Assembly (NCBI GenBank): GCA_943736015.1
Contig: OX031065.1
Span: 26,984,427 to 27,048,426 of the forward strand
DNA: 64,000 bases
Source of the DNA: Tridacna crocea
Lineage: Eukaryota > Mollusca > Bivalvia > Cardiida > Cardiidae
Direction of reading: 5' to 3'
The position numbers and the translations under genes are program-made. The notes under the pieces are model-generated. The model was not told where the DNA came from and searched no databases. It was given only the letters and a program-made list of their open reading frames with translations. The stretch's first letter is position 1. Every line of letters begins with the position of its first letter. Of this stretch, positions 3,600 to 63,547 are shown piece by piece.

Positions 3600-4204
3600 A
3601 AAGTTCAATGTATTTTTTTTTCTTTTTTGAAATGTGTTTTTGTTTTAAACGTGAAGGACAATACGTCCTTCCTGAAGTATTGTTCAGAAACGAAGTAGGT
3701 CAGTGGTTGTTTATAAAGATAACAGTCGCCATTTTGATTGATTGTAAGCTCGTGAAAGCTTTACGCCTGCGTTTCAGAAGGCTACATTAGTATATAAATA
3801 TGAATGATTTGTATTCCATTTGCTGCCATAACTAAATGTATTGCTCTTCGTCGAAGAAGAATATTTAACAAATCCCAAATGTCAACAGTCCTTACAGTGA
3901 CTGGAAATTTCGACCGATAACAATTTCGTCCCATTACAATTTCGGCCCATTCTCCTAACGTGAGTTTACATGGTTTGCATTTGTGTAATAAATCTTACAC
4001 CTTTATAATCTTCTAAACTTACCTTTCAGCACTAGGATTTTGTAGCCCTAAGGTGAAAGTGTGTTGAAATGTTGGAAAAATATAAAATGGTGATCTATTC
4101 TTCCCCTTTCATATAGTTAATTTTGACTTTAATGCTGTCAACCTGGATCTAACATATATATGCATTTAAATCTTTAAATTGGCTCAGCCAAAAGTATTGC
4201 AGCT
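3600..4204. other. AT-rich spacer with a 17-bp tandem motif
   Basis: Three head-to-tail units of the form AATTTCGNCCNATTAC occupy about 3904-3955. The rest, including a short T/F-rich open frame at 3608, has no recognisable content. Confidence 0.4.
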
Positions 4205-4855
4205 TTTGTACTTTCACTTAAAGGTGGCCCTTCAGATTTTTGGACGAAATTTATACAAAAATATTAAAATTCATCCTGATACTCCCAGTACTTTTAAATT
4301 TCATTCATAAAACCCCAGTAGTCGAAAACCATCCGACAACAAGAGAAATTAGAGATTTACTACGGCCCAGGTCAACACTGACGGGAACCATGGTCTGTTT
4401 TTAGATGAGCAACTTGCTCACTCACTTACCGGAAATACACAAATGATGCTTCAAACACATCGACTGAAGAAAAAGTTTATGGAAAATAACATGTTTGTTA
4501 TGTTATGGAATTTAAGAGTCATTAGTCACGTGCCAGTCACTTTACATTCCCACTATGCTTCTTTTGATTTTTGGTGTAAAATCTAAAAATACCTTAACCC
4601 TTTACCACACAATCCCGACTTTTAACACCCCTGTGAAAGAAGCCTTTTAAAAACATTGTGGGAAAAGGAGAAAATGCTGGTCACCAGCATTTTCTCCTTT
4701 TCCCACAATGTTTTCTTCCCTTCCCAAAATAAATTTTAATTCTTTAGTCACATTCATTTTGTCGTCTGCAAACACTTTCAATTTGGACCAGTCTATAGTT
4801 TTGTCGTTTGGTAAAGGGTTAAGAGGCTACATAGCCTTTTAAGAGAATACCATAA
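4205..4855 (+). repeat. family R repeat, split by an A element
   Basis: GGTGGCCCTTCAGATTTTTG through CCCCAGTAGTCGAAAACCAT and on to GCCTTTTAAGAGAATACCA is shared with 14515-14930. The family A copy at 4594-4822 interrupts this one but not the other. Function unknown. Confidence 0.7.
4594..4822 (+). mobile_element. family A TTAA-hairpin element, complete
   Basis: Reference copy. It starts TTAACCCTTTACCACACAAT and ends TCGTTTGGTAAAGGGTTAA. The hairpin at about 4650-4712 has the centre GCTGGTCACCAGC with arms pairing AAAGGAGAAAAT with ATTTTCTCCTTT. No coding capacity, so it needs a transposase supplied elsewhere. TTAA borders and CCC ends point to a piggyBac- or Kolobok-like source (inference). 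The related R repeat at 14515-14930 has no insertion here, which fixes both borders. Confidence 0.88.
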
Positions 4856-5040
4856 AAAAATGTATACAAAAAGTGTCATGGTATTGAAGTTTTTGAAGTT
4901 AATCGACATAATATTTAGTAGATTCATTCAATTTGGCTGGCAAGTATCTTGCAAAATTGATACCTGCTTCTGTAGAGAAAAGGGTTAAACATTAATATTG
5001 AAAAAAAAAAAACTAAATGAATGTGCATGCAAAACCGAAC

Positions 5041-5226
5041 AAAAGAAAACATTTGAAAACATTGTGGGAAAAGGAGAAAATGCTGGTAACCAATGTTTTC
5101 TTCTTTTCCTATAATGTGTTCTTATCCTTTACTGACAAATCTTATTACTTGTGCCACATTTACTATGTCTCTTGGAAATTCTTTCAATTTTGATCGGTCT
5201 GAATTGTGTTGTGTGGTAAAGAGTCA
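5041..5226 (+). mobile_element. family A element, 5' truncated
   Basis: It begins inside the left flank (ACATTTGAAAACATTGTGGG) and ends TGTGGTAAAGAGTCAAA. The hairpin has lost part of its right arm. Confidence 0.6.
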
Positions 5227-5293
5227 AATCTGATTTAAAAGGTTTTTTGAAAATTGTGTTTGCATAGGTAAAAAGGCTGTACAGTATGTGTGC

Positions 5294-5522
5294 TTAACTC
5301 ATTACCACACGAGAAAATTTTAGACTGGTCCAAATTGAAAGCATTTGCAGACGACAAAATAAAAGTGACTAAAAAATAGAAATGTGTTCTGGGAAGGGTA
5401 GAAAACACTGTGGGAAAAGGAGAAAATGCTAGTTACCAGTATTTTCTCCTTTTCCCATAGTGTTTTTAAAAGGCTTTTTTCTTAGGGGCGTCAAAAGTAG
5501 GGATTGTGTGGTAATGGGTTAA
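5294..5522 (-). mobile_element. family A element, first of three abutting
   Basis: It starts TTAACTCATTACCACACGAG and ends GTGTGGTAATGGGTTAA. The last TTAA (5519-5522) is also the first TTAA of the next copy. The hairpin arms carry the CACTGTGGG / CCCATAGTG variant. Confidence 0.85.
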
Positions 5523-5747
5523 CCCATTACCACACAGTCCCTACTTTTGACGCCTCTGAGAAAGAAGCCTTTTGAAAACACTGTAGGAAAAGGAGAAAAT
5601 GCTGGTAACCAGCATTTTCTCCTTTTCCCACAGTGTTTTCTACCCTTCCAAGAACAAGTTTCAATTTTTCAGTCACCTTTATTTTGTCGTCTGCAAATGC
5701 TTTAGATTTGAACAAGTCTAAAATTTTGTCATTTGGAAATGAGTTAA
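5519..5747 (+). mobile_element. family A element, second of three abutting
   Basis: Opposite in orientation to both neighbours and shares TTAA with each (5519-5522 and 5744-5747). Hairpin centre GCTGGTAACCAGC, arms of the CACTG/CAGTG type. A 163-residue open frame on the minus strand crosses this and the next copy and is purely repeat-derived. Confidence 0.85.
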
Positions 5748-5976
5748 CTCTTTCCCAAACAACAAAATTTAAGAGGGGTCCAAATTGAAAGCCATGCTGA
5801 TGACATAATAAATGTGGCTCAAAAATTGAAATTTGTTTAGGGAAGAATAGAAAACATTGTGAGAAAAGGAGATAATGATGGTTACCCACACTTTCTACTT
5901 TTCCTACAATATTTTCAAAAAGCTTCTGTCTCAGGATCGTTGAAAGTCGGGATTGTTTGGTAGTCTTAAGAGTTAA
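5744..5976 (-). mobile_element. family A element, third of three abutting
   Basis: It begins TTAACTCTTTCCCAAACAAC and ends AAGAGTTAA. The hairpin is eroded (GATGGTTACCCAC), so this copy is older than its neighbour. Confidence 0.75.
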
Positions 5977-6158
5977 AGGTATTAACCAGTGGCACTGTTG
6001 AGTTGATGCAGAATGCAAACCATTTTAGATATGTCTGTTTGGACTACTTTAGCTTTTAACAATTGCCACAGTCAGGGAGATTTGTCTGAAATGATTATGA
6101 TCCTTGATTGAACATTAAAACCAATATTTTATCATCTACAAAAGATGTGAAGCATTCT

Positions 6159-6347
6159 TTAACCTTTTACCACTCAGTGATGAGTTTTGACACCCCAAGG
6201 AAAGAAGCCTCCTTTTCCCACAATATTTTCTACTATGTCATAAGAACAATTGCAGCATTTGATTCAGATAATGAGATTGAAATTGTTGTCTGCAACTGCT
6301 TTCAATTTCGACAAGGCTAGAATGTTGTCAATTGGTAATGGGGTTAG
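6159..6347 (+). mobile_element. family A element lacking one hairpin arm
   Basis: TTAACCTTTTACCACTCAG at the left and TTGGTAATGGGGTTA at the right. The left hairpin arm is deleted, leaving only CCTCCTTTTCCCACAATATT. Confidence 0.7.
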
Positions 6348-6845
6348 ACCTGGTTTGTATGTGTTAGCATGATGCTTTCAAGTGGGATAAAGCAGTTAAG
6401 CTAAAGAAATGCGGGCTGAGCTTAACGGGAAGCCATAACCCCTATCTTGCCTATTGCAACATTGGTCATATTTGCTAATAGTGTAGACCAATGATCAACC
6501 TGCATAGCCATTCAGTCTGATGTTGGTCTGCACTGTTGGCAAATTTTACAGTGACTTAAATTCGGAAGCAAATCTGGAATAGTCTATTCTGGGAAATCAG
6601 CAGCATAAGAGGTAAAACTGACCCTTGAAAAGATTTTTGAAAAATGTTTTTGTTAAAGAAAAAATTGCTCAACAGTAAGGTGGGTAATTTTAGACAATCA
6701 AGGCCCTCTTCAATTCTTTGGACAATAACTTGATGTTGCATCAATCTACAATATGCATCTTTGATAAAAGAAGAATGTTAAGTTAAATACTGTTCAGATT
6801 TTTGTATGGCTATCATTTGGTTATATTTCTTTGTATCTGTTTTAG
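6348..6845. other. no recognised feature, intron-like
   Basis: Ends in a pyrimidine-rich tract (TTATATTTCTTTGTATC) leading into TGTTTTAG at 6838-6845, which would serve as a splice acceptor. No family match. Confidence 0.3.
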
Positions 6846-7059
6846 GAAGAGATTGTGCAGGTCAGAGGGACAGACGTCCAGGTCAAGACAGTTAAGATCT
6901 CAAGATGGCACAGATGACTTAAAGGTGTTACTCTGGAGGGAGTGGAGGGAGATGAGTTCAAAGAACCTAATGGGTCAATACATATAGCTAACAATTGTTG
7001 TTGTCAATACATACAGAGACGAGATGTCAGTGTCAACCAAAACAAAGACTGAAATTAAG
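6846..7059 (+). pseudogene. possible decayed coding sequence
   Basis: Right after an acceptor-like TTTTAG, one frame reads EEIVQVRGTDVQVKTVK, meets a stop, then continues LEGVEGDEFKEPNGSIHIA. After a one-base shift another frame reads TIVVVNTYRDEMSVSTKTK up to a donor-like AAG|GTATTA at 7059. The mixed, protein-like composition suggests an eroded exon or exons, but one stop and one frameshift break it. I recognise no family. It might instead be two separate exons or chance. The possible exon at 8254 would join it in phase 0. Confidence 0.2.
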
Positions 7060-7302
7060 GTATTAAATCCACTCTAGTCTTCCCAGGTTATCCCTAGTGC
7101 TCATGGTGAACAGTTGTGATGGGTTGGTATTTTGACTATTGTGTGTCTGTTCACCATTAGCACAAGCACATTTACATGTTGCTCCTGAAGTTCTATTTGA
7201 CAAAGCCCAGAAAAGCAATGTCACAAACTGGCTTTCAGTATCTTTAACAGAATCACTAAGATGTAAAACGATAATTAAACTTTTGACAGTATTGTCCTCA
7301 AG
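7060..7302. other. no recognised feature
   Basis: A spacer between the decayed coding signal and the next A element. It would be intron if the 8254 exon is real. Confidence 0.3.
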
Positions 7303-7531
7303 TTAACCCATTACCACGCAATCCCTACTTTTGACGACCTTTGGAAACAAGCCTTTTGAAAACATTGTGGGAAAAGGAGAAAATGCTGGTAAGTCGCATT
7401 TTCTCCTTTTCCCACAATATTTTCTACCCCTCACAAAACAAAGTTCAAATTTTCATTCACATTTATTTTTGGTCTGCAAATGCTTTAAATTTGGACAAGC
7501 CTAAAATATTGTCATTTGGGTAATGAGTTAA
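7303..7531 (+). mobile_element. family A element, complete
   Basis: TTAACCCATTACCACGCAAT to TTGGGTAATGAGTTAA. The hairpin centre is altered to GCTGGTAAGTCGC; the arms otherwise pair. Confidence 0.82.
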
Positions 7532-7896
7532 TCTCTTTCAGACCTTGCATGGCCCAACGTAAGATCTGGAAAAAGATTGATCTTATGCCGTTTGTTTACT
7601 AACATGTTGGGACATTCTTATTGGTGTATCAGCATTGATGATAATTCAACATTCTTTTTCAGGAGACTGAAATAGGGCTATCTTGACTCACTTGTTTCCT
7701 CAGTCATTTGCTATTGAAAATAATAGAACCACTGTGATTCTCTAAAATTCTCAAAGTAACTGTGACTCAAATTATATATTTCCATTATCACCAGAAATTC
7801 TAATTTCTATGGGCATAGATCAAGAAAAGTGCAGAGATACTGCAGAAAATCCTTACATTGCTAATGCATATTTCAGCTGATTGTTAGAAAACATAG
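7532..7896. other. no recognised feature
   Basis: AT-rich spacer with no open frame or repeat family that I can support. Confidence 0.35.
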
Positions 7897-11329: not shown

Positions 11330-11579
11330 TTAACTCTTTACCACACGACAACATTTTAGACTGGTTCAAAATGAAAGCATTTGCAGACGACAATATAAAG
11401 GTGACTGAAAAATTGAAATTGGTTCTGGGAAGGGTAGAAAACACTGTGGGAAAAGGAGAAAACACTGTGGGAAAAGGAGAAAATGCTGGTTACCAGCATT
11501 TTCTCCTTTTCCTACAGTGTTTTCAAAAGGCTTCCTTTTCAGGGGCGTCAAAAGTAGGGATTGTGTGGTAATGGGTTAA
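11330..11579 (-). mobile_element. family A element with duplicated hairpin arm
   Basis: TTAACTCTTTACCACACGAC to TGTGGTAATGGGTTAA. The segment AACACTGTGGGAAAAGGAGA occurs twice in a row (11439-11480), adding 21 bp to the left arm only. The 113- and 61-residue open frames here are hairpin read-through. Confidence 0.85.
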
Positions 11580-11659
11580 ACTTCCTAGTCTTTTTGCGAG
11601 CCTTTTTGACAGGTCTTAATTGGGACAAAGCACTGGGATAAGAATGTAACACTTAGTAT

Positions 11660-19948: not shown

Positions 19949-20299
19949 AAATACATTCAAATAATCGCAGGTTTGAACAACCGACTTTTGGCATATATGA
20001 TATTCTAATTATCGTGTTCTACCAAAACCCTGTGGAACATAAGAACACTTAACAATATAATTGAAACCTGGTGTGACTAACATGGATTGTAACGTGGATA
20101 CTGGACGTTAACGAAAAATTATCCTTTTTCCACAATGGTTTTATATGCTGAATTTATAATTTAACCTTGACTCTTGAATGCACTTACTACCCATACACGA
20201 ATGTCACTCGGCACAGCTCGTCCGATTCCGTACTAGATCAACGGATCACCCGAGGTTTGCCAAATGACACGGATGTGTGCACAGGCGTTGGTCTTTTTG
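19949..20299. other. no recognised feature
   Basis: Spacer before the minisatellite, with a short A-like piece near 20115-20140 (TTATCCTTTTTCCACAATGG). Confidence 0.35.
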
Positions 20300-20916
20300 C
20301 AACAGTGGTTTCAATAATATAGCAATTCCTGGTTATTGCAACAGTGGTTTAGATAATAGCAATTCCTGATTATTGCAACCGTGGTTCCGATAACAGCAAT
20401 TCCTGATTATTGCAACAGTGGTTTCGATAACAGCAATTTCTGATTATTGCAACAGTGGTTTCGATAATAGCAATATCTGATTCTTGAAACAATGTTTTCG
20501 ACAATAGCATTTCTTGATTATTGCAACAGCGGTTTCGATAATAGCAAGTTCTGATTCTTGCAACAGTGATTTCAACATAGAAATTCCTGATTATTGCAAC
20601 AGTGGTTTCGATAATAGCAATATCTGATTCTCGAAACAATGTTTTCGGCAATAGCGATTCGTGGTTATTGCAAGAGTGGTTACGATAATAGCAATTTTTG
20701 ATAATTGCAACAATGTTTTCGACAATAGCATTTCCTGGTTATTGCAAGAGTGGGGTTACGATAATAGCAATTTTTTATCATTGCAACAGTGTTTTCGATA
20801 AAAGCAATGTCTGTTCTTGCAACGGTGTTTTTGGATATAGCAACTCCTGATTATTACAAGAAAGTTTTCGACAATAACAATTTCTAATTCTTGCAACAAT
20901 GTTTTTTGACAATTTT
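20300..20916 (+). repeat. 37-bp minisatellite, about 16-17 units
   Basis: The unit reads GCAACAGTGGTTTCGATAAT then AGCAATTCCTGATTATT. Successive GCAACAGTGG marks at 20338, 20375, 20412 and 20449 are exactly 37 bp apart; later units drift. The 93-residue frame rich in TVAIIRN on the minus strand is translation of the repeat. Confidence 0.92.
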
Positions 20917-21430: not shown

Positions 21431-22816
21431 CTATCTTTGTCCTGATATCAAAACGTCCAATTTTTTGTCTATTGAGTGTATTTTCTCTTCTAAACTTATT
21501 ACTTTGGTCTGTAGATTTGTCTGTTCTTCTTGCACCTGTTCTACTATCTCATGCACGTCACTGACTGACTTAGAGATTTCAATAACTCCAACAGCACTTT
21601 CGCCAATGGACAATCTTTCATTCTTGGCTTCCCTCATGGTATAAATAGCCTGCAATAATTTACCGTAGATTCGTAATCTTCTGTTTCCATCTATGACTCC
21701 ATGTCTGCGCATTCGCCATAACGACAAAGCGTGTTTTATGACGTCAGATGCCGCATTCTTACGGATTTTATCCAACTGAACTCTTGTGACAAAATTATGA
21801 ACATATTTCTCTGGTCTAGTTTGCTCCAGTTTTGAAGCCAAAACGGCGACAAGTAAAGCTGTAGTACCGACTCCCATTAAACCAGTCAAGACGGAAACGA
21901 ATCGGCCGCAGTAAGTACTCGGCGTCATGTCGCCATAACCAATTGTCAAAAAGGTAATGGCTATCAGCCACATGGAGTTCAAGTAGCTGCTCTCTGGGGA
22001 ACCAGGGTGGTAATAAATTTCGCATGTACGCAGAGACCAGCTGTCTACCACCAATATAAATATCATCAAAATTGAAAGCATGGTACCCGGCATAGTGGAC
22101 ATCAAGGCTTTAAACACGAATGCCGTGTTTATCTTGACTTTATTTAGAGCACCAAGACTTTGAGTAGAAGTGTCCGTCAGTAGACGATGATGAACAACCG
22201 TAAATTTACCGACGATGTAAAATCGACCAAGCATAAGAATAGAAAAAATGGCATCCAAAGACACCATCCGATATTTGCCGTCGACGCCATATGAGGGCAC
22301 AAGAATATTTCCTGGTATAGGATGTATACAACATACTAACAATTCTAGTAACACTTTCAGGTAAGTCCATGGAAAGTCCATCGCCAGCCTCCAATCATCC
22401 CAACTATTGTCCGTCATTTGTAGCTTGATCCCGGTCACGTGATACGAAATAATAGCACAGAGTAGAACTAACGTAGTTAGGGATATCACAGACTTTATAA
22501 TGATGGAACCAGGGGACGTTTTGGTTACAACACCCTGTATAAACAGTTCTGTCTCAACCAACATCAGAATAATACCCAACATTGCCATGGTGAACTCAAC
22601 ATTAACGATCATCCGTCGACGGTTCACAAGCTGTTTTCTACGGCCAAGTTTGTATCCTATGTTGTCGAATCGGCTAGTGATCCCAAGGGCTGACGTCATG
22701 GCGTCACCGGAAGAAGAAGCGCTGATATTGTCTTCTTCAACGTATTTGTTGTATTTACCGTTAGTTCGATTGACGAGTGGAATTCCCGGATCCTCTATGA
22801 TACTGTTTCCACTCAT
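21431..22816 (-). CDS. SK-type Ca2+-activated K+ channel
   Basis: Predicted tetrameric plasma-membrane K+ channel of the KCNN (SK/IK) family, opened by Ca2+ through bound calmodulin and not by voltage. In the 461 residues: S1 about 70-97, S2 105-129, S3 152-172, S4 185-210, S5 236-260, pore helix and filter 281-299 with TIGYGD at 291-296, S6 305-329. The calmodulin-binding region follows at about 330-400 (HNFVTRVQLDKIRKNAA), then a predicted coiled coil at about 418-457. The start is the Met of MSGNSIIEDP: an upstream Met in the same frame lies within the polypyrimidine tract of a splice acceptor (AG at 22823-22824), so it would be intronic. The whole frame is one exon, whereas vertebrate KCNN genes are split, so it may be a retroposed or intron-poor lineage copy. 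The filter has Thr where mammalian SK has Ser. The segment after KNAA is diverged and lacks the LRETW motif. Which KCNN paralogue it matches is not clear. Confidence 0.95.
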   Translation of the reverse strand: MSGNSIIEDPGIPLVNRTNGKYNKYVEEDNISASSSGDAMTSALGITSRFDNIGYKLGRRKQLVNRRRMIVNVEFTMAMLGIILMLVETELFIQGVVTKTSPGSIIIKSVISLTTLVLLCAIISYHVTGIKLQMTDNSWDDWRLAMDFPWTYLKVLLELLVCCIHPIPGNILVPSYGVDGKYRMVSLDAIFSILMLGRFYIVGKFTVVHHRLLTDTSTQSLGALNKVKINTAFVFKALMSTMPGTMLSILMIFILVVDSWSLRTCEIYYHPGSPESSYLNSMWLIAITFLTIGYGDMTPSTYCGRFVSVLTGLMGVGTTALLVAVLASKLEQTRPEKYVHNFVTRVQLDKIRKNAASDVIKHALSLWRMRRHGVIDGNRRLRIYGKLLQAIYTMREAKNERLSIGESAVGVIEISKSVSDVHEIVEQVQEEQTNLQTKVISLEEKIHSIDKKLDVLISGQR

Positions 22817-22822
22817 CTTATT

Positions 22823-22842
22823 CTGAAAGTAGAAAACAAACA
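22823..22842 (-). other. splice acceptor for the SK exon
   Basis: Minus-strand sequence GTTTGTTTTCTACTTTCAG followed by AATAAG and the ATG. A pyrimidine-rich tract ending in CAG implies an intron in the 5' untranslated region. The upstream exon and promoter were not located. Confidence 0.7.
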
Positions 22843-22897
22843 ACTTAGGCGGATCGCATTTAATTACCTAAAGACAAAATACGAGTCTTGTCTATAA

Positions 22898-31372: not shown

Positions 31373-32110
31373 GAAATGAAGAAAATTCTTCTTCCTGAAA
31401 CTGCTTGTCAGTTTTTGAAATAATTTCATAGAGATGTTCCTTGGGTGACCCTTTTCAAAAAGTGTTTGTGAAATTTTGATTCGTCGAGAAACATGGCTCT
31501 GGTGAATTGGTGTTACTTGCACTATAGGGAAATGAAGAAATTCTTAAAAATTCTTCTTCTCTCGAACGGCTGGTCAGATTTTAAAATAATTTCACAGAGA
31601 TGTTCCTTGGGTGACCCTTTTAAAAAAGTGTTCGTGAAATTTTGATTCGTCAAGAAACATGGCTCTGGTGAATGGGGACTACTTGCACTAAATGGAAATG
31701 AAGAAATTCTTAAAAATTCTTATTCTCTGAAACCTGTCGTCAGATTTTAAAATAATTTCCACAGCAATGTTACTTTGGTGACCCTAATCAAAATCTATTC
31801 ACGAACTTTTGATCCGTCAAGAAACATGGCTGTGGTGAATGGGGGCTAGTTGCACTATACGGACATGAAGGAATTCTTGAAAATTCTTCTTCTCTAAAAC
31901 GGCTCGTCAGATTTTAAAATAATTTCACAGAAATGTTCCTTGAATCACCCTTTTCAAAAAGTGTTTGTGAAATTTTGATAGATCAAGAAACATGGCTCTG
32001 GTGAAAGGGGGCTACTTGCACTGTACGGAAATTAAGAAACTCCAAAAAATTCTTCTTTTCTGAAACTGCTGGTCAGATTTTGAAAGGACTTTTACAGGTG
32101 ACCTTTTGAA
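31373..32110 (+). repeat. family L tandem array, about 4.5 units of 156-167 bp
   Basis: Units starting GAAATGAAGAAATTCTTA or close variants at 31373, 31529, 31695, 31862 and 32028. Each carries AATTCTTCTTCTCTGAAAC, ACAGAGATGTTCCTTGGGTG and AAGAAACATGGCTCTGGTGA. Units keep no common open frame. Confidence 0.9.
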
Positions 32111-34149: not shown

Positions 34150-34636
34150 CAGGGGTAACAACCTACGTCATAGCATATGTCATCGGAGACATTTTAAATT
34201 CGCTGTTTTCGTTTTAGAAAGGGAAGTTTTTTAGCTTGTACATTATTGCTATTAAAGATCTGTCCAAACAAAGCAGTGTATATGGTACATGACAACTTTT
34301 TTCGTTAGTATACATTAATGTTTTGTCCATTAGTTTCGTTGATTTTGCAATTACCTCCGCACAATTTTCGAAGCCGGTGACACATGTGCGATCTAAAAAT
34401 AGATGTCGTATACAATGACGTTAAGAATAATTGTGTTGAAGTGTTTAGAGCTACAACATTGTTTCATGGCATTTTGATTTCACGAATAGGACAAATATAT
34501 TTACCGTCACCAGATGAAGTAGGTATTCTAAGTAAATTTTATATACATATATCTTTTTAAATTAATTAATCTGCACTTTGCGCACAGAATGGCGGCTATT
34601 CCGACACCTCTGCTATGACGTAGGTTGTCACCCTTG
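34150..34636 (-). mobile_element. element H, 487 bp, with 5-bp target duplication
   Basis: Ends CAGGGGTAACAACCTACGTC and GACGTAGGTTGTCACCCTTG are inverted and flanked by ATATA (34145-34149 and 34637-34641). The reverse complement follows the H copy at 42825-43279. No coding frame, so non-autonomous. Confidence 0.82.
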
Positions 34637-36625: not shown

Positions 36626-36790
36626 ATGCATTAAACTTCCTTTTCACACATCATTTCTCATATTTATAAACACACACTCGCATATTTGTTTTTTCTGTAA
36701 CATCCAAATGAATCCGAATCAAAATCAGGTAAAATAACTCGAATTTCACCAAAATTAAAAATCACCAAAGTTTCCTTTCAACCATTATAA
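36626..36790. other. spacer between B elements
   Basis: Nothing recognised. Confidence 0.3.
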
Positions 36791-37054
36791 TGGCTTGCAA
36801 CACGCAAAAAGGGACATTCGGACATCTGCGTAAAGTGTCGTCTCGGATCAGCCTGTGCAGTCCGCGCAGGCTAATCCGATACGGCACATTAGGACTACAT
36901 TAGATTTTGTGCTACAGTAGACTTGCGTATAAAACAGAAAATCACATACAATCGGAAAGTGTCGTTTCGGATTAGCCTGTGCGGACTGCACACGCTGATC
37001 CGAGACGACACTTTACGCAAATGTCCGAATGCCTCTTTTCGCGTGTTGCAAGCC
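36791..37054. repeat. long family B element with terminal inverted repeats
   Basis: TGGCTTGCAACACGCAAAAA pairs with GCGTGTTGCAAGCCA; each arm continues with CATTCGGACATTTGCGTAAA-like sequence, AAGTGTCGTYTCGGATYAGC and a GCGCAGGCT core. It shows that the short B hairpins are inner parts of a 264-bp palindromic unit. Confidence 0.8.
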
Positions 37055-37105
37055 AGTTATAGTATCTTACAACTGTTGTTGCCTTTGAAGTCAGTGCAGA
37101 TTAAT

Positions 37106-38984: not shown

Positions 38985-39505
38985 GATCAAATTCAGTATT
39001 TAAAGTTTTTTTTTTTTTCAGTTATTCCTCATGGCATACCCCTTCGCCTCACAACGCATTCAATATTACGCTAAGAGCGAGAAACGTAAAGTAAATTGCG
39101 TCATATTTCCATCTGTTTTTGAGGCATGCACTACTTACTAGTGCGCGGGAACAGCTGTTTCAGCCTTTAACTCATCACCAAACGACAAAATTTTAGGTTT
39201 GTCCAAATCGAAAGTATTTGCAGACGACAAAATAAAAGTGACTGAAAATTTGAATTTTGTTTCGTGAAGGGGAGAAAACATTGTGGGAAAAGGAGAAAAT
39301 GCTGTTGAATAGCATTTTCTCCTTTTCCCACAATGTTTTCTAAAGGCTTTTTTCTCAGGGGCGTCAAAAGTAAGGATTGTGTGGTAATGGGTTAATTGAA
39401 GAGTAAGAATATAAAAATCGGTATTTTTACTTGTCGTAACCATGAAATACCGAAAAATATTTCACCGATATTTCTCGATAAACTACCTAAAAGCATGAAA
39501 TTAAT
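38985..39505 (+). repeat. arm X, orientation a, interrupted by an A element
   Basis: TATTCCTCATGGCATACCCC, GCGTCATATTTCCATCTG, TAGTGCGCGGGAACAGCTGT, then after the inserted A copy AATATAAAAATCGGTATT and CGATATTTCTCGATAAAC. Mirrors 37676-38017. Confidence 0.72.
39167..39395 (-). mobile_element. family A element inserted in arm X
   Basis: TTAACTCATCACCAAACGAC to TGTGTGGTAATGGGTTAA. Hairpin centre GCTGTTGAATAGC. In arm X at 37676 the same place reads CCTTCAATCGAAGAG when reversed, so TTAA arose from TTCAA or was there in the original arm. Confidence 0.87.
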
Positions 39506-42535: not shown

Positions 42536-42824
42536 GCATGTCATATTCTTCGAAGCATGACGCATTACTCCCCCCATTTTTTCGGGGTGGGGGGATTGTA
42601 GTAGAACGCGCTATAAAGTACCAATGGAAAAAAAAAGACTTTTATCAATACGTTTGAGGAGAAATAAGGCCTGTTTTAACTCCAGACTTCTCTAAACTGC
42701 TGATCATAGCTGAATTATTGAGTAAACGTTTATTTTAGTTTGTAACTCAATGTAACGGTTCTAGCGTAGAATAGTAGTCCAGTTCTGTACCAAGTTAGAT
42801 GTGTATTTGTAGAATGCCATCTAC
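42536..42824 (+). repeat. family I repeat
   Basis: GCATGTCATATTCTTCGAAG to GTGTATTTGTAGAATGCCAT. Same order as 54770-55086. A C/G tract near 42571-42597 is specific to this copy. Confidence 0.65.
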
Positions 42825-45652
42825 AAGGGTGACAACCTACGTCATAGCAGAGGTGTCGGAATAGCAGCCATTTTGTGCGCAAAGGGCAGATAAATTACTT
42901 TAAAAATTACTTTAAAAAGATATATATATCTAAAATTTACTTAGAATACTTATTTCATCCAGTGACGGTAAATATATTTGTCCTATTCGTGAAATCAAAA
43001 TGCCATGACACAATGTTGTAGCTCTAAACACTTCAACACAATTACTCCTAACGGCATTGTACACGACATCTATTTTTAGATCGCACATGTGTCACCGGCT
43101 TCGAAAATTGTGCGCAGGTAATTGCAAAATCAACGAAACTGATGAACAAAATATCGATGGATACTAAAGAAGAAAGTACCATATGCACTGCTTTGTTCGA
43201 ACAGATTTTCAATAACAATAATGTACAAGCTGAAAAACTTACCTTTTTAAAACGAAAACGGCTGATTTAAAATGATGTATTATGGAACGCCATAGCTGTC
43301 ATATGTTGATACGTTTCGAGTTGTCGTATTCAAACAAACTTTTTTTGTGTCATGAAATGCATTATTTCGTCAACAGAGATAGTACTTTTCTCAATGCATG
43401 ATTTTGTTTTGTTTGAAATAAATGCCAAGTTGTCGACATCAATACTTATTAAACCTCAACACTATCTTATAATGTTAGTGGAATGAGATATCTGCTTGCT
43501 TCTTTGCGTTGTTATGTTGAAAGACAAAGATGACTTGTCAAATTGTGTTCCTGTTTGGTCGATGCGCTGTGTTATTATGTCCAACACACGAAAATTTTTA
43601 CTATGTCAATTAGACGTGTTGTTGCGTTAGCGTGGTACCAAGAGTTACATTATAGCGTTTATACACCATGTTGATCTGTTCATAGGCGATATTGATAGGT
43701 CAACTATTTGTTTCGTTGGGTTAAAAATAAAGGTATTATGTCTGCTTACTACTTCTGTTTGTGCGTAAACTATGTTGACTGGACTACTATTCGGGTCGTC
43801 GAGTTAAAAAAACACCGTTAGCTTGTCAATCAGTTGTGTCGTTATGTCTATACACCATGTTGTTGTGTTGATATAACATGTTGACCGGTAGATTATTTGC
43901 GCTGTTGGGTTAAAAGATAGTGTTGGGTTGTTGAAATGCTGTATTACTGTGTTTATCGAGCAAGTTGACCGGTCGTCCCTTTGTGTTTTTAGGTTAAGAA
44001 ACAAAGTTTAGTTGTCAACAGTTAGATCATTATGTCTACATGTCATCCTATTGCGTTCAAAAGAAATGTTAACTGGTTGATTCTTTGTGTTGGTTGGTCT
44101 GTGAACAAAGTCAGTTCATCAGACAGTTGTATTATGATGTCTACACGCCAATTTATTGTCTTTATTTGACATCTTGAATGGTTGAGTCCTTGTGTTGTTG
44201 GGTTAAAAATCAAAGTTGTTATGTTTGCATGCTGCCTTGTTGTGTTCATTTGGCATACTCACTGGTCGACTATTTGCGTTGTTGAGTTAAAAGATTGAGT
44301 TGTTGTGTCTGCATGCTGCGTTGTTGTGTTTATGAGACATGTTAATTGGTGGATTTTTTGTGTTGTTTGGTTAATATACAAAATTAACATGTCAGATAGT
44401 TAAATTAACAGGTCTTTACGCCATGTTATTGTGTTCATAAGCCATGTTGCCTAGTCTAGTCTATATACCTTTATACCAAACAATTTTGGGTTCTCTAATG
44501 GTTGAATTACTATGTTCACATAGCTTTTTATTGTGTTCATTTGACATGTTGACTGATCGACTAATAGTGTTGTGTGGTCAAACAACAAAGTTAAATTATC
44601 AAAAAGATGTATTATTACGTCTACGCGCCATGTTGTTGTGTTCACTGGACAAGTTGACTGTTGGACTTTCTGTTTTGATTTGTTAAAAGCAATTCTGAGT
44701 TGTGGAATAGTTGTACTTATATGACTACAAAGCATGTCATCGTGTTAATAGGATTTAATTATAATAACGCCGCATGCAGGCATACTAGCTTAGTTTTGTG
44801 ACACAAAAACACAACTAGTGACCAATCAATGTGTCACGTGAATACAACAACGTAGTACTTAGACATAATACCTTTATTTTCCAACCAAACAACATGAAGA
44901 TCAACCAGTCAACTTGGTGTACTAAAGCAATAACACGACTTGTAGACATAATAATACAACTTTTTAACAAGCTTACACTGTTTCTAAATCCAACAAAAAT
45001 AAGAATCGACCAACCAACATGTCCAATGTAAACAGTAACGAAGGACACAGACATAATAACTTGTATTTGAACACGACAACACAAATAGTCCACCACACAG
45101 CCTTTCCAACGGACACAATAACGTGTCGAGTAGAATTGGTGACATGACCAGTTGACCACTTAACTTTGTTTTTTAAGCCAACAACACAGAGGGTCGACAT
45201 GGCAACACGTCAGATGAACACAACAAAATGTCATGTAGATATAGCAATAAAACCATTTGACCAACCAACACTGTTTTTTAACCGTCCAACACAAATTGCC
45301 GACCAGTCAGCATAGCTAATTCACGCAATAACATAAGGTGTAAACATAATGATTCAACTGTATGACAAGTCACCATTCTTTTCTGACCAAACAACACAAA
45401 GAATCGACAAGTCATCATGTCTCCTTGACATTACAACAACATATGAAGACATAATAATACAACGGTATAACCAGTCAACATTGCTTTCAACCCCATAACG
45501 TCATGTATTTAGCATACCACATGCCAGGTAGACATATTAAAATAATGGTTCGACAAAGTGAAAATTCATACCAACAAAACACCTCAAATTGCATTAACTT
45601 ATGGCAGCTATGGCGTTCCATAATGTATGCTATGACGTAGGTTGTTACCTTT
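42825..45652 (+). mobile_element. element H carrying a nested foldback element
   Basis: AAGGGTGACAACCTACGTCA at the left and TGACGTAGGTTGTTACCTTT at the right are the H ends. 42825-43279 aligns with the H copy at 34150-34636 in reverse, and 45624-45652 supplies its other end. Everything between is the inserted foldback element. The outer flanks differ (family I at the left, an A fragment at the right) and no outer target duplication was found. Confidence 0.72.
43280..45623. mobile_element. foldback element with tandem-repeat arms
   Basis: It begins TTATGGAACGCCATAGCTG and ends CAGCTATGGCGTTCCATAA, flanked by TGTA on both sides (43276-43279 and 45624-45627). The left arm (to about 44760) is an imperfect array of 80-105 bp units such as CATGTTGACCGGTCG, TTGTGTTGTTGGGTTAAA, GTATTATTATGTCTACA-like and CCATGTTGTTGTGTTCAT. 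The right arm (from about 44815) has the same units inverted (ACAACATGAAGATCAACCAG, AGACATAATAATACAAC). No coding capacity: every open frame here is repeat translation. The layout is that of Foldback-type transposons. Confidence 0.75.
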
Positions 45653-48020: not shown

Positions 48021-48535
48021 ACCTGTGCGGACTGAGTAGACACTTTTTGGTGATGATCAATTTTCTGCATGTCCAACGACAATTCTACCTCATGATTCAG
48101 CCAGCTATTGGACAAAAGGGCTTGCAACACGGTAAAAAAGACATTCGGACATTTGCGTAAAGTGTCGTTTCGGAGTCCGCGCAGGCTGATCCGAAACCAT
48201 ACTTTCCGTTTTAATGTATTTTTCTGTTTCATGCAAGTCTACTGAGGAACAAAATCTAATGTAGTCGTAAAGTGCTGTCTCGGATCAACCTGCGCGGACT
48301 GCGCAGGCTGATCCGAAACGACACTTTACGCAAATGTCCGAATGTCCTTTTTACCGTGTTGCAAGCCATTTTGTCCAATAGCTGGCTGAATCATGAGGTA
48401 GAATTGTCGTTGGACATGCAGAAAATTGATCATCACCAAAAAGTGTCTACTTTTCTGTAATGAATTTGTCGATTTCATCCGAGATGGCACTTTACGCAAA
48501 TGTCCGAATGCCCCTTTTCATGTGTTGCAAGCCAA
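48021..48535. repeat. long B element within a 415-bp hairpin
   Basis: Arms 48036-48174 and 48312-48450 (139 bp each) are inverted copies with only two mismatches seen. They contain the B end CTTGCAACACGGTAAAAA, the ATTCGGACATTTGCGTAAAG block and the B flank GATCAATTTTCTGCATGTCC. A further B right end (ACTTTACGCAAATGTCCGAA to TGTGTTGCAAGCC) follows at 48490-48535. Confidence 0.85.
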
Positions 48536-50800: not shown

Positions 50801-50884
50801 TCAACAGTGATTGTACTGGCTAGAAGTCAGCAGAGCTTATGTCATGGTATGGTTTCCGTCATCTGTCCGTCTGTTAGTCTTTTT

Positions 50885-51800
50885 CTTGTTTACACGATAA
50901 AGTCTGCATTTGCTGTCAGATTTTGGTGAAACTTGCACAGTTATCTTATCTCATCAATAGCTTCAATCCTATTGGTTTTGAAAAAAAGTCCAATAAACAG
51001 ATTAGGTAAAGAAGCCATTTGAAGTTGAAAATTTCCATTTCTTGTTTACGCCATAAAGTCTGCAAATGTGGTCAGATTTTCGTGAAACTTGCTGGGTTTG
51101 TTTATCTCATCAATAACTTCAACCCTATTATTTTGAAAAAAAATCCAACAAATTTGGTATAGGAAAAGTAGCAATTTAAAGTTGAAAATTTCCATTTCTT
51201 GTTTATGTGATTAAGTTTTCATTTGTGGCTAGATTTTTTTGAAACTTGTACAGTTTTTTTATCTCATCAATAGCTTCAACTCTATCGATTTAAAAAAAAA
51301 TCCAACAAACGATATGGGGAAAGTAGCCATTTAAAGTTGAAAATTTCATTTGCTTGTTTACGCAATGGACTCGCATTTTGTGGTAAGACTTTCCTTAAAC
51401 TTGTAGGGTTTGTTTATCTCATCAATAGCTTCAACCCTATTGATCTTCAAAAAAAAGTCCATGAACAGTATAGGAAAAATTTCCATTGTTTTTGTACACG
51501 ATTTAGTCTCCATTTGGTATCAGATTTTTTTTCAAACTTGCACAGTTATGTTTATCTCATCAATAGCTTGAACCATACTGATTTTGAAAAAAAAATCCAA
51601 CAAACAGTGTGGGAGTATGGGAAAAGTAATTATTTGAAGTTGAGAATTTCCATTTCTTGTTTAGGCAATGATGTTCACAGTTTCGATCCAGTTCCTTTGA
51701 AACTTTCAAAGATTGTTTGGTTCACAAAGGGATTGAGCCCTATCAAAAGTGAAGAAAATATACTGATGTGTTTAGGAAGAGCAGCTATTTGATAACTTAG
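50885..51800 (+). repeat. 156-bp tandem array, about six units
   Basis: CTTGTTTACG-like starts at 50885, 51041, 51198, 51353, about 51490 and 51656. Each has ATCTCATCAATAGCTTCAAC, AAAAATCCAACAAACAG and GTTGAAAATTTCCATTTCTT. The 151-residue open frame at 51337 is a translation of the array. Confidence 0.9.
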
Positions 51801-57075: not shown

Positions 57076-57305
57076 TTAACTCTTTACCAAATGACAAAAT
57101 TTTAGGCTGGTCCAAATTTGAAAGCACTTGCAGACGACAAAATAAAAGTAACTCAAAAATTGAAATTTATTTCCAGCACGATAGAAAACATTGTGGGAAA
57201 AGGAGAAAATGCTAGTTACCAGCATTTTCTCCCTTTTCCACAATGTTTTCAAAAGGCTTCTGTCTCAGGGTCGTAAAAACCAGGGATTGTTTGGTAAAGG
57301 GTTAA
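57076..57305 (-). mobile_element. family A element, complete
   Basis: TTAACTCTTTACCAAATGAC to TTTGGTAAAGGGTTAA. Left arm AATGCTAGTTACC has one unmatched change. Confidence 0.86.
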
Positions 57306-61789: not shown

Positions 61790-62018
61790 TTAACTCCTTA
61801 CCACACGACAAAATTTTAGACTCGTTCAAATTGAAAGCATTTGCAGACGACAAAATAAAGGTGACTGAAAAATTGAAATTTGTTCTTGGGAGGGTAGAAA
61901 ACACTGTGGGAAAAGGAGAAAATGCTGGTTACCAGCATTTTCTCCTTTTCCTACAGTGTTTTCAAAAGGCTTCTTTCTCAGGGGCGTCAAAAGTAGGGAT
62001 CGTGTGGTAATGGGTTAA
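61790..62018 (-). mobile_element. family A element, complete
   Basis: TTAACTCCTTACCACACGAC to CGTGTGGTAATGGGTTAA. Hairpin of the CACTG/CAGTG type with one mismatch. Confidence 0.88.
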
Positions 62019-62031
62019 ACACTAGCTGATA

Positions 62032-63101: not shown

Positions 63102-63150
63102 CCTTTTCAATATTATGTCGTGCTTTTGAAACGCTGAGATAGGTTGCTTT

Positions 63151-63378
63151 TTAACCCATTACCACACAATCCCTACTTTTGACGCCCCTGAAAAAAGAAG
63201 CCTTTTGAAAACACTGCAGGAAAAGGAGAACATGCTGGTAACCAGCATTTTCTCCTTTTCCCACAGTGTTTTCTACCCTTCCCAGAACAATTCAATTTTT
63301 CAGTCACCTTTATTTTGTCGTCTGCAAATGCTTTCAATTTGAACCAGTCTAAAATTTTGTTGTGTGGTAAAGAGTTAA
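63151..63378 (+). mobile_element. family A element, complete
   Basis: TTAACCCATTACCACACAAT to TGTGTGGTAAAGAGTTAA. CACTG/CAGTG hairpin with GAACATGCTGG in the left arm. Confidence 0.87.
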
Positions 63379-63547
63379 AGCAGTGCAGGATCAAGATCAA
63401 AACTACCAGATTATCTCGTCCCTTCACCAAACGACATGGCATCTGTATGTATACATGATGAACAAGGATTTAGAAAACAAAAAAAAATTCAATCATACTA
63501 GCTTTATTAAACAAATGCAATAAGATTTTCCTTTTTTATCAAAGTAG

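Follow-up and report, generated by a model that had tools for sequence, protein, structure and literature searches.

The block at 43281..45622 of the window, by which we mean the whole 64-kb stretch of DNA analyzed here, is a real mobile DNA element with foldback arms, and it is inserted into a resident MITE-like element that we call H. We propose, with a probability of about 0.75, that this element, which belongs to a family that we name A, is a non-autonomous foldback of an IS3EU/GingerRoot-like clan, and that its arms are arrays of probable transposase-binding sites. The borders of the element, its 6-bp target duplication, its other copies and its oriented 21-bp period are directly observed, as are related families and a transposase lying between such ends. 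The preliminary description of this DNA had recognized a foldback-type transposon nested in H but had missed the 21-bp monomer, the five-fold higher-order repeat and the related families, one of which carries the transposase.

A Foldback Element Inserted into a Resident Repeat

The inverted ends reported at the outset are borne out by a 19-mer search allowing up to three mismatches, in which the 19-mer at 43280 gave exactly two matches in the 64-kb window, one per strand, against 0.02 expected, its sole partner being the inverted copy at 45605-45623. This search, together with the other copies described below, places the left terminal inverted repeat (TIR), TATGGAACGCCATAGCTG, at 43281..43298 (+) and the right one, a perfect 18/18 match, at 45605..45622 (-). 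The element itself, given on the + strand, is 2342 bp long and has the same borders as 14 other full-length copies. Taken alone, the window copy allows GT, TGTA and ATGTAT as equally symmetric readings of the duplication, and the 4-bp TGTA had been chosen initially. Since the other copies match over 6 bp, that choice has to be replaced by ATGTAT (43275..43280 and 45623..45628), with the ends at 43281 and 45622, and a 2- or 4-bp duplication is ruled out for family A. A terminal 5-bp stem, TATGG-AACG-CCATA, is a weak signal, because 171 of 5000 random 19-mers from the window have a comparable one.

No protein-coding capacity was found in family A, the longest stop-free stretch of the copy consensus being 98 codons. 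The idea that the arms themselves are coding, 21 bp being seven codons, was discarded, as stop counts are not consistently depleted in any arm frame.

The insertion broke H into a larger part at 42824..43274 (-), which is 87.6% identical to 34190-34636, and another end at 45629..45652 (-), which is inverted to 42825-42849 and 24/24 identical to H copy 1 over 45626-45649. A simple H copy without the insertion lies at 34150..34636 (+). Taking out the insert and one duplicate leaves an H copy whose alignment to the simple one runs across the insertion point, with a 9-nt gap relative to the latter and a few further small gaps elsewhere, which agrees with the nesting first proposed. That the array is instead native to H or to the site, with no insertion at all, might be argued from the fact that this comparison covers two H copies. 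We give this explanation a negligible probability: the H copy at 34150-34636 runs uninterrupted through the site, copies of the 2.3-kb element occupy further genomic places where different 6-bp duplications flank them, and the 14 other full-length copies refute it for practical purposes.

Copies of Family A in the Genome

The left 121 bp of the element has 33 matches in the genome (1.05 Gb, 31 contigs). The preliminary description had looked to other genomic copies ending at the same two borders, and the 20 regions that we fetched contain 14 such full-length copies, or 15 with that of the window; regions L018, L027, L028, L029, L030 and L031, being rearranged, single-ended or short, were not counted as full-length. 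The 15 copies measure 2316-2352 bp and are 93.8-99.5% alike (mean 95.6%). Twelve of them are flanked by a perfect 6-bp duplication, one by a duplication matching at 5 of 6 positions, and two by none. The ends are conserved, diversity among copies being 0.011 and 0.009 in the terminal 30 bp, compared with 0.014-0.038 in 150-bp bins. One copy, L023, continues past its right end into 31 bp of a second left-type end (2942-2972), and the target duplication lies beyond this addition, an arrangement that recalls the alternative 23-bp end of FB in the portion of the FB literature consulted.

Several other arrangements of family A ends were noted. In L047 and L014 (C1:62.207-62.218 Mb), family A ends recur in the same orientation about 1.95 kb apart, and each of two stretches about 1.8 kb long corresponds to one and the same 79% of the element, a pattern that tandem amplification of a truncated copy might leave. 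An exact family-A end pair lies 15 kb apart at C16:37979520-37994585. Viral contigs contained 0 copies of the element, and prokaryote contigs contained 3 matches to the 18-mer end, which we estimate to be about chance level in 257 Gb.

Inward-Reading Arrays of a 21-bp Monomer

The left arm (43311..44752, +) consists of 70 monomers or part-monomers of a 21-bp repeat, 58 of which are exactly 21 bp long, and the right arm (44761..45591, -) of 42 that run the other way, 35 with a length of exactly 21 bp. The arrays start about 30 bp from either element end and abut near 44755, such that monomer order reads inward from both ends and flips there. This strand switch, expected near 44765 from the initial reading, occupies 44753..44760, without a unique middle region. 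The arms are unequal in length (about 1.44 kb on the left and 0.83 kb on the right), and their complementarity is about 65-72%. The predicted DNA folding of the whole element reaches -330.9 kcal/mol, compared with a mean of -240.4 (sd 8.1) for 24 arm-wise shuffles, and 502 of its 805 base pairs are cross-arm.

Autocorrelation of both arms peaks at 21, 42, 63, 84, 105 and further multiples, and many of the repeat spacings (63, 84, 105, 147, 189 and 210) are multiples of 21. The arms had been described as made of tandem units of 80-105 bp; they are indeed tandem, but these units are not primitive, those of 84 and 105 bp being 4 and 5 copies of the 21-bp monomer. The best period for a cyclic profile model is 21, with a score of 660; the neighboring periods 20 and 22 reach 395 and 247, and periods 17, 19, 23 and 25 no more than 155. 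Within the 64 kb, the 21-bp model marks just two stretches, 43311-44752 (+) and 44761-45591 (-), and it finds no matches in two shuffled windows; as it was trained on these same arms, the scan speaks to uniqueness and is not an independent test. In a model-free scan for period 21, the element's six 800-bp bins rank first among the 159 bins of the window, the other 153 having a mean of 0.08, an sd of 0.26 and a maximum of 1.24.

The monomers are organized into a higher-order repeat. With the left arm as training set and the right arm as test, units of one to seven monomers scored 241, 285, 305, 326, 352, 333 and 335, the best unit in this cross-arm comparison thus being five monomers; in the training data alone, a seven-monomer unit stands slightly above five (1180 vs 1165). 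The order of the five types is kept in 74 of 103 neighboring monomer steps, whereas permutation gave a mean of 20 and a maximum of 34 (2000 permutations), a result that we take as a consistency check, because the type consensuses derive from the ordered model. Identity between monomers of the same type is 57.0% within the left arm, 57.7% within the right arm and 58.4% between arms, compared with 42.3% for monomers of different types. Since same-type likeness is about equal within and between arms, neither arm is a separate lineage. The degenerate 21-bp motif has a core of about GTT-n-T-n-n-TGTC-n-A.

Elsewhere in the window, a repeat family of about 230 bp is present in more than 15 copies in 64 kb, among them 1121-1352, 4594-4822, 5294-5522, 11330-11580, 39167-39395, 57076-57305, 61790-62020 and 63150-63379. 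Self-inverted (palindromic) elements, at 82-84%, lie at 36786-37061 and 48035-48451, and tandem arrays with periods of 166, 157 and 37 bp at 31382-32085, 50882-51478 and 20297-20905, respectively. A single-exon open frame at 21431-22867 (-) encodes a small/intermediate-conductance calcium-activated potassium (SK) channel and identifies the sequence as animal DNA.

A Clan of Families with Shared Ends

The 18-bp end, with at most one mismatch, has 297 matches genome-wide, and the reversed pattern has 0. Termini of the form TATGG...CCATA (TA..TA) are found in the sampled members of family A, of families that we designate B, C and D, of MITEs and of giant copies. In a sample of 32 pairs, A included, the flanking duplication matches at 6/6 positions in 25, at 5/6 in three and at 2/6 or fewer in four, and in none of the 32 over 7 or 8 (or 8-9) bp. 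This sample includes L031 (534 bp), and L045 as a miss; L047, L048 and L050, as tandem or rearranged copies or with a flank not fetched, were left out.

The families differ in length and in the number of monomers per block, which is 3, 5, 7 or 8 of the 21-bp step. Family B is represented by nine elements with both flanks, of 4.4-7.3 kb, with a TIR of about 965 bp (95.7-98.6% identical) and three tandem units per arm of 167-168 bp, near 8 x 21. Family C (L037) measures 7.4 kb, with periods of 105 and 147, and family D (L039) 4.0 kb, with periods of 63, 126 and 189. The MITEs of the clan measure 120-1142 bp and also have 6-bp duplications. Families C and D show the 21-bp period clearly, and it is also present in the two B arms, whose mean z values at multiples of 21 are 2.7 and 3.8, but absent from the B middle region (mean z 0.3). 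MITE L043 gives a weak overall signal (1.3) but a z of 5.0 at shift 21 itself.

The motif itself recurs in these families. On the two arms of D the family-A model reaches 472 and 350, on those of B 48 and 37, and on those of C 12.6 and 22.3, in the sense direction only, the opposite strand giving at most 0.3 and shuffles at most 4.4. One arm of MITE L043 scores 111 (antisense 11) and the other, the left arm, 0. The correlation of motif profiles with A is 0.93 for the MITE, 0.81 for D, 0.63 for B and 0.47 for C, values that column-permuted controls reached 0, 0, 1 and 19 times per 500, respectively; the likeness of C to A is weak, and the MITE is not independent of A, as it aligns at 74% with A's right end over 452 bp. 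By BLAST against A, D gives two short matches besides the ends and C only the 28-bp ends, and the A arms give no match to family B at E 0.001.

These observations bear on a different account of the arms, in which they are inert satellite-like DNA grown by slippage or unequal exchange, the 18-45 bp ends suffice, and A amplified one frozen version. In keeping with it, family A copies share one fixed array: its length is nearly constant, the larger differences amount to few indels, and L012 has exactly one 21-bp monomer fewer than the other copies. The monomers of one type are, moreover, merely 57-58% alike within and between arms. Two tests gave no signal of constraint: an indel deficit, as helical phasing might impose, was unsupported (arm indel/substitution ratio.043 vs.039-.071 in other repeats), and the relation of between-copy diversity to motif information was not significant (rho -0.41, p 0.065). 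Finally, MITEs of 120-330 bp (L044, L046 and L049), with the same ends and 6-bp duplications and room for few or no monomers, have moved nonetheless. What weakens this account is that families whose arms BLAST cannot align, including the coding lineage described below, share the 21-bp period and have related core motifs, oriented alike with respect to the ends; neutral satellites are not expected to hold period and orientation across families. We therefore regard inert arms as rather unlikely, and favor arms that serve as arrays of transposase-binding sites; given that short MITEs with the same ends moved and that the two constraint tests were negative or not significant, such arms are probably helpful and not essential.

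The interior of L037 contains a 166-bp array, as does the window at 31382-32085, and L050 harbors at 3935-7702 (-) a nested retrotransposon gene. The corresponding 1255-aa ORF of L050 was rejected as a clan transposase, as it reads by eye as a non-LTR retrotransposon, and so was a nested 657-aa ORF of L048 (580-2550, +), which matches reverse transcriptase (Pfam). A 152-aa ORF of L040 has a Tc3-type HTH match below cut-off.

A Giant Lineage Encoding a Transposase

We searched the genome for a transposase using rva_4, an integrase-core family which we take to be associated with IS3EU/GingerRoot-like transposases, and obtained 147 matches in this genome, with none of 14 control genomes giving any. 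Among the five best matches, three, on C2, C16 and C17, are located inside elements that start with TATGGAACGCCGTAGCTGTCTTTTCTTT and have arm repeats resembling those of B (81-90%). An exact 31-mer end has six matches in the genome, forming three inverted pairs that delimit giant copies of 32,654, 32,368 and 34,399 bp (C2, 7933796-7966449; C16, 37486040-37518407; C17, 32241679-32276077). These copies, which were read in parts (L063-L067, L070 and L071), are flanked in 3/3 cases by a perfect 6-bp duplication (CCCATC, CTAATG and TACAGA). The right end of the C17 copy was outside the next 6 kb and was later located by pattern. In the C2 copy, 993 bp of both ends are 93% identical, and the fetched parts of the giant copies are 96.7-99.5% alike in long blocks.

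The transposase core is an open frame of 296 aa, complete in the other two giant copies at 99.7% and 97.3%, and of the N-terminal exon C17 has a complete version and C16 an interrupted one. The core matches rva_4 (5.6e-71) and rve (1e-7), as well as IS481 (3.6e-12) and IS3 (1.7e-5), the last two with scores below those models' own cut-offs. The N-terminal exon, searched alone and not as part of the full spliced protein, matches SAM just over cut-off and HTH below cut-off, with no zinc domain. D53, D110 and E143, picked by eye from motifs, are candidate catalytic residues; a structure prediction of the core, with a mean pLDDT of 35, was too poor for use. About 12.8 kb inside the C17 copy lies a HECT-domain stretch (6.2e-8; L066:3880-4200, -), a possible cargo.

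About 120 ends (61 + 60) match the 31-mer with at most one mismatch, and among the matches listed at least 37 B-type pairs have a median length of 5037 bp, a figure computed without singletons or the two pairs shorter than 400 bp. Of the 18 terminal bases, one distinguishes family A from the giant lineage. We did not find a transposase gene between family-A-type ends; rva_4 fragments near an A-type end on C4 were set aside, as that end belongs to a MITE and has no transposase link.

The transposase also allows us to weigh a Mutator- or P-type foldback, the kind to which most described cases belong and for which long tandem-repeat arms are on record in the accounts of Tm1, Muta1 and Galileo that we drew on. 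Against such an origin, 25 of the 32 sampled pairs have a 6-bp duplication and none one of 8-9 bp, and the transposase found between such ends has an integrase core and is neither of MULE nor of THAP/P type, which makes it highly improbable. An IS3EU/GingerRoot-like clan, by comparison, fits on ends, duplication and transposase kinship, and its membership in this group is likely. For family A this membership is likewise likely, judging by the ends, duplication and motif that it shares with the clan.

A Model for the Foldback Arms

We hypothesize that the gene-less family A, whose window copy is inserted into H between 6-bp target duplicates, is a cut-and-paste element moved in trans by a transposase recognizing TATGGAACGC ends. 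The strongest candidate for this enzyme is the integrase-core transposase of the 32-34 kb elements, which share the ends and arm plan of family A; it or a close relative may move family A, and the 21-bp motif may be its binding site. In this model, the inward 21-bp arrays would equip each end with numerous transposase-binding sites spaced by two helical turns, and could let a weak or short-site DNA-binding domain still pick the right ends. A precedent is provided by Galileo, whose transposase THAP domain binds sites in the arm repeats, the authors suggesting that many sites supply specificity, in the portion of PMC3688188 available to us; the same source notes that what repeats of this kind do in Foldback and Phantom elements is untested.

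More tentatively, and with somewhat less than even confidence, we suggest that the clan, from 120-bp MITEs to cargo-carrying elements of 32-34 kb, has built its ends into strand-ordered 21-bp ladders with 3-, 5-, 7- or 8-step repeats, and has in this way arrived at an FB-like five-step plan in an unrelated superfamily. If true, foldback arms would be a convergent answer, providing end specificity via a phased array, and the foldback plan would become linked with an integrase-related superfamily as well as with a giant element. The role of foldback arms and the transposases that move them are largely open questions, and this one genome offers a natural series for tests of arms and phasing: several of its families combine near-identical ends and a common 21-bp step with varied higher-order units, some copies are recent (up to 99.5% alike), and all three giant copies retain a transposase core that seems uninterrupted.

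Comparison with Known Systems

Among the papers listed in a literature search, judged by title and start of abstract, there was no molluscan foldback element and no foldback IS3EU, which is not proof of absence, and no paper on a foldback element with a 4-bp duplication came up. The Galileo/P superfamily has target duplications of 7-8 bp; the clan does not, having duplications of 6 bp. Galileo resembles family A in its long arms with internal tandem repeats, which in Galileo contain transposase-binding sites, and differs in having a P-superfamily THAP transposase where we find an integrase-core candidate (PMC3688188, in part). The Mutator foldbacks Tm1, Tetris and Muta1 likewise combine a terminal motif with subterminal tandem repeats, but their duplications, in the sections of PMC3169594, PMC4079207 and PMC5225508 that we used, are of 8-10 bp and not 6. 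The bivalve Helentron HINE is another non-autonomous element of a marine invertebrate with satellite-like arrays; as presented in the available part of PMC7492417, however, its arrays are central, between two modules, and Helitrons lack a target duplication, a feature of Helitrons and Helentrons that the clan does not show.

The plan that family A was initially said to share with FB, TU and Galileo elements is indeed similar, but the data do not support kinship. FB, in the excerpts of PMC7642927 at hand, is built of oppositely oriented blocks of five repeats of 27-31 bp in variable tandem number; it also has end sequences of 467-479 bp, a spacer and a middle region, and its target duplication measures 9 bp. 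Family A also has mirrored tandem blocks of five distinct short repeats, an analogy of plan; its repeats, however, are of 21 bp, it has neither a middle region nor long unique ends, its duplication is of 6 bp, and its array length is near-fixed, whereas the block number of FB varies between copies. Because duplications, ends and middle region differ, we consider FB a likeness of plan, not of membership.

The closest resemblance is to IS3EU and GingerRoot, which the part of PMC10045372 consulted describes as one lineage related to IS481EU and similar to IS3 and IS481. According to the same part, TA..TA termini are invariable in complete IS3EU families and 6-bp duplications usual, and GingerRoot has 6-bp duplications and mostly TA..TA ends. 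Foldback arms phased at 21 bp and a coding element of 32-34 kb, both found here, go unmentioned in that description. What the clan has in common with this lineage is its TA..TA termini, its 6-bp duplications and, in its coding lineage, an integrase core related to IS481 and IS3.
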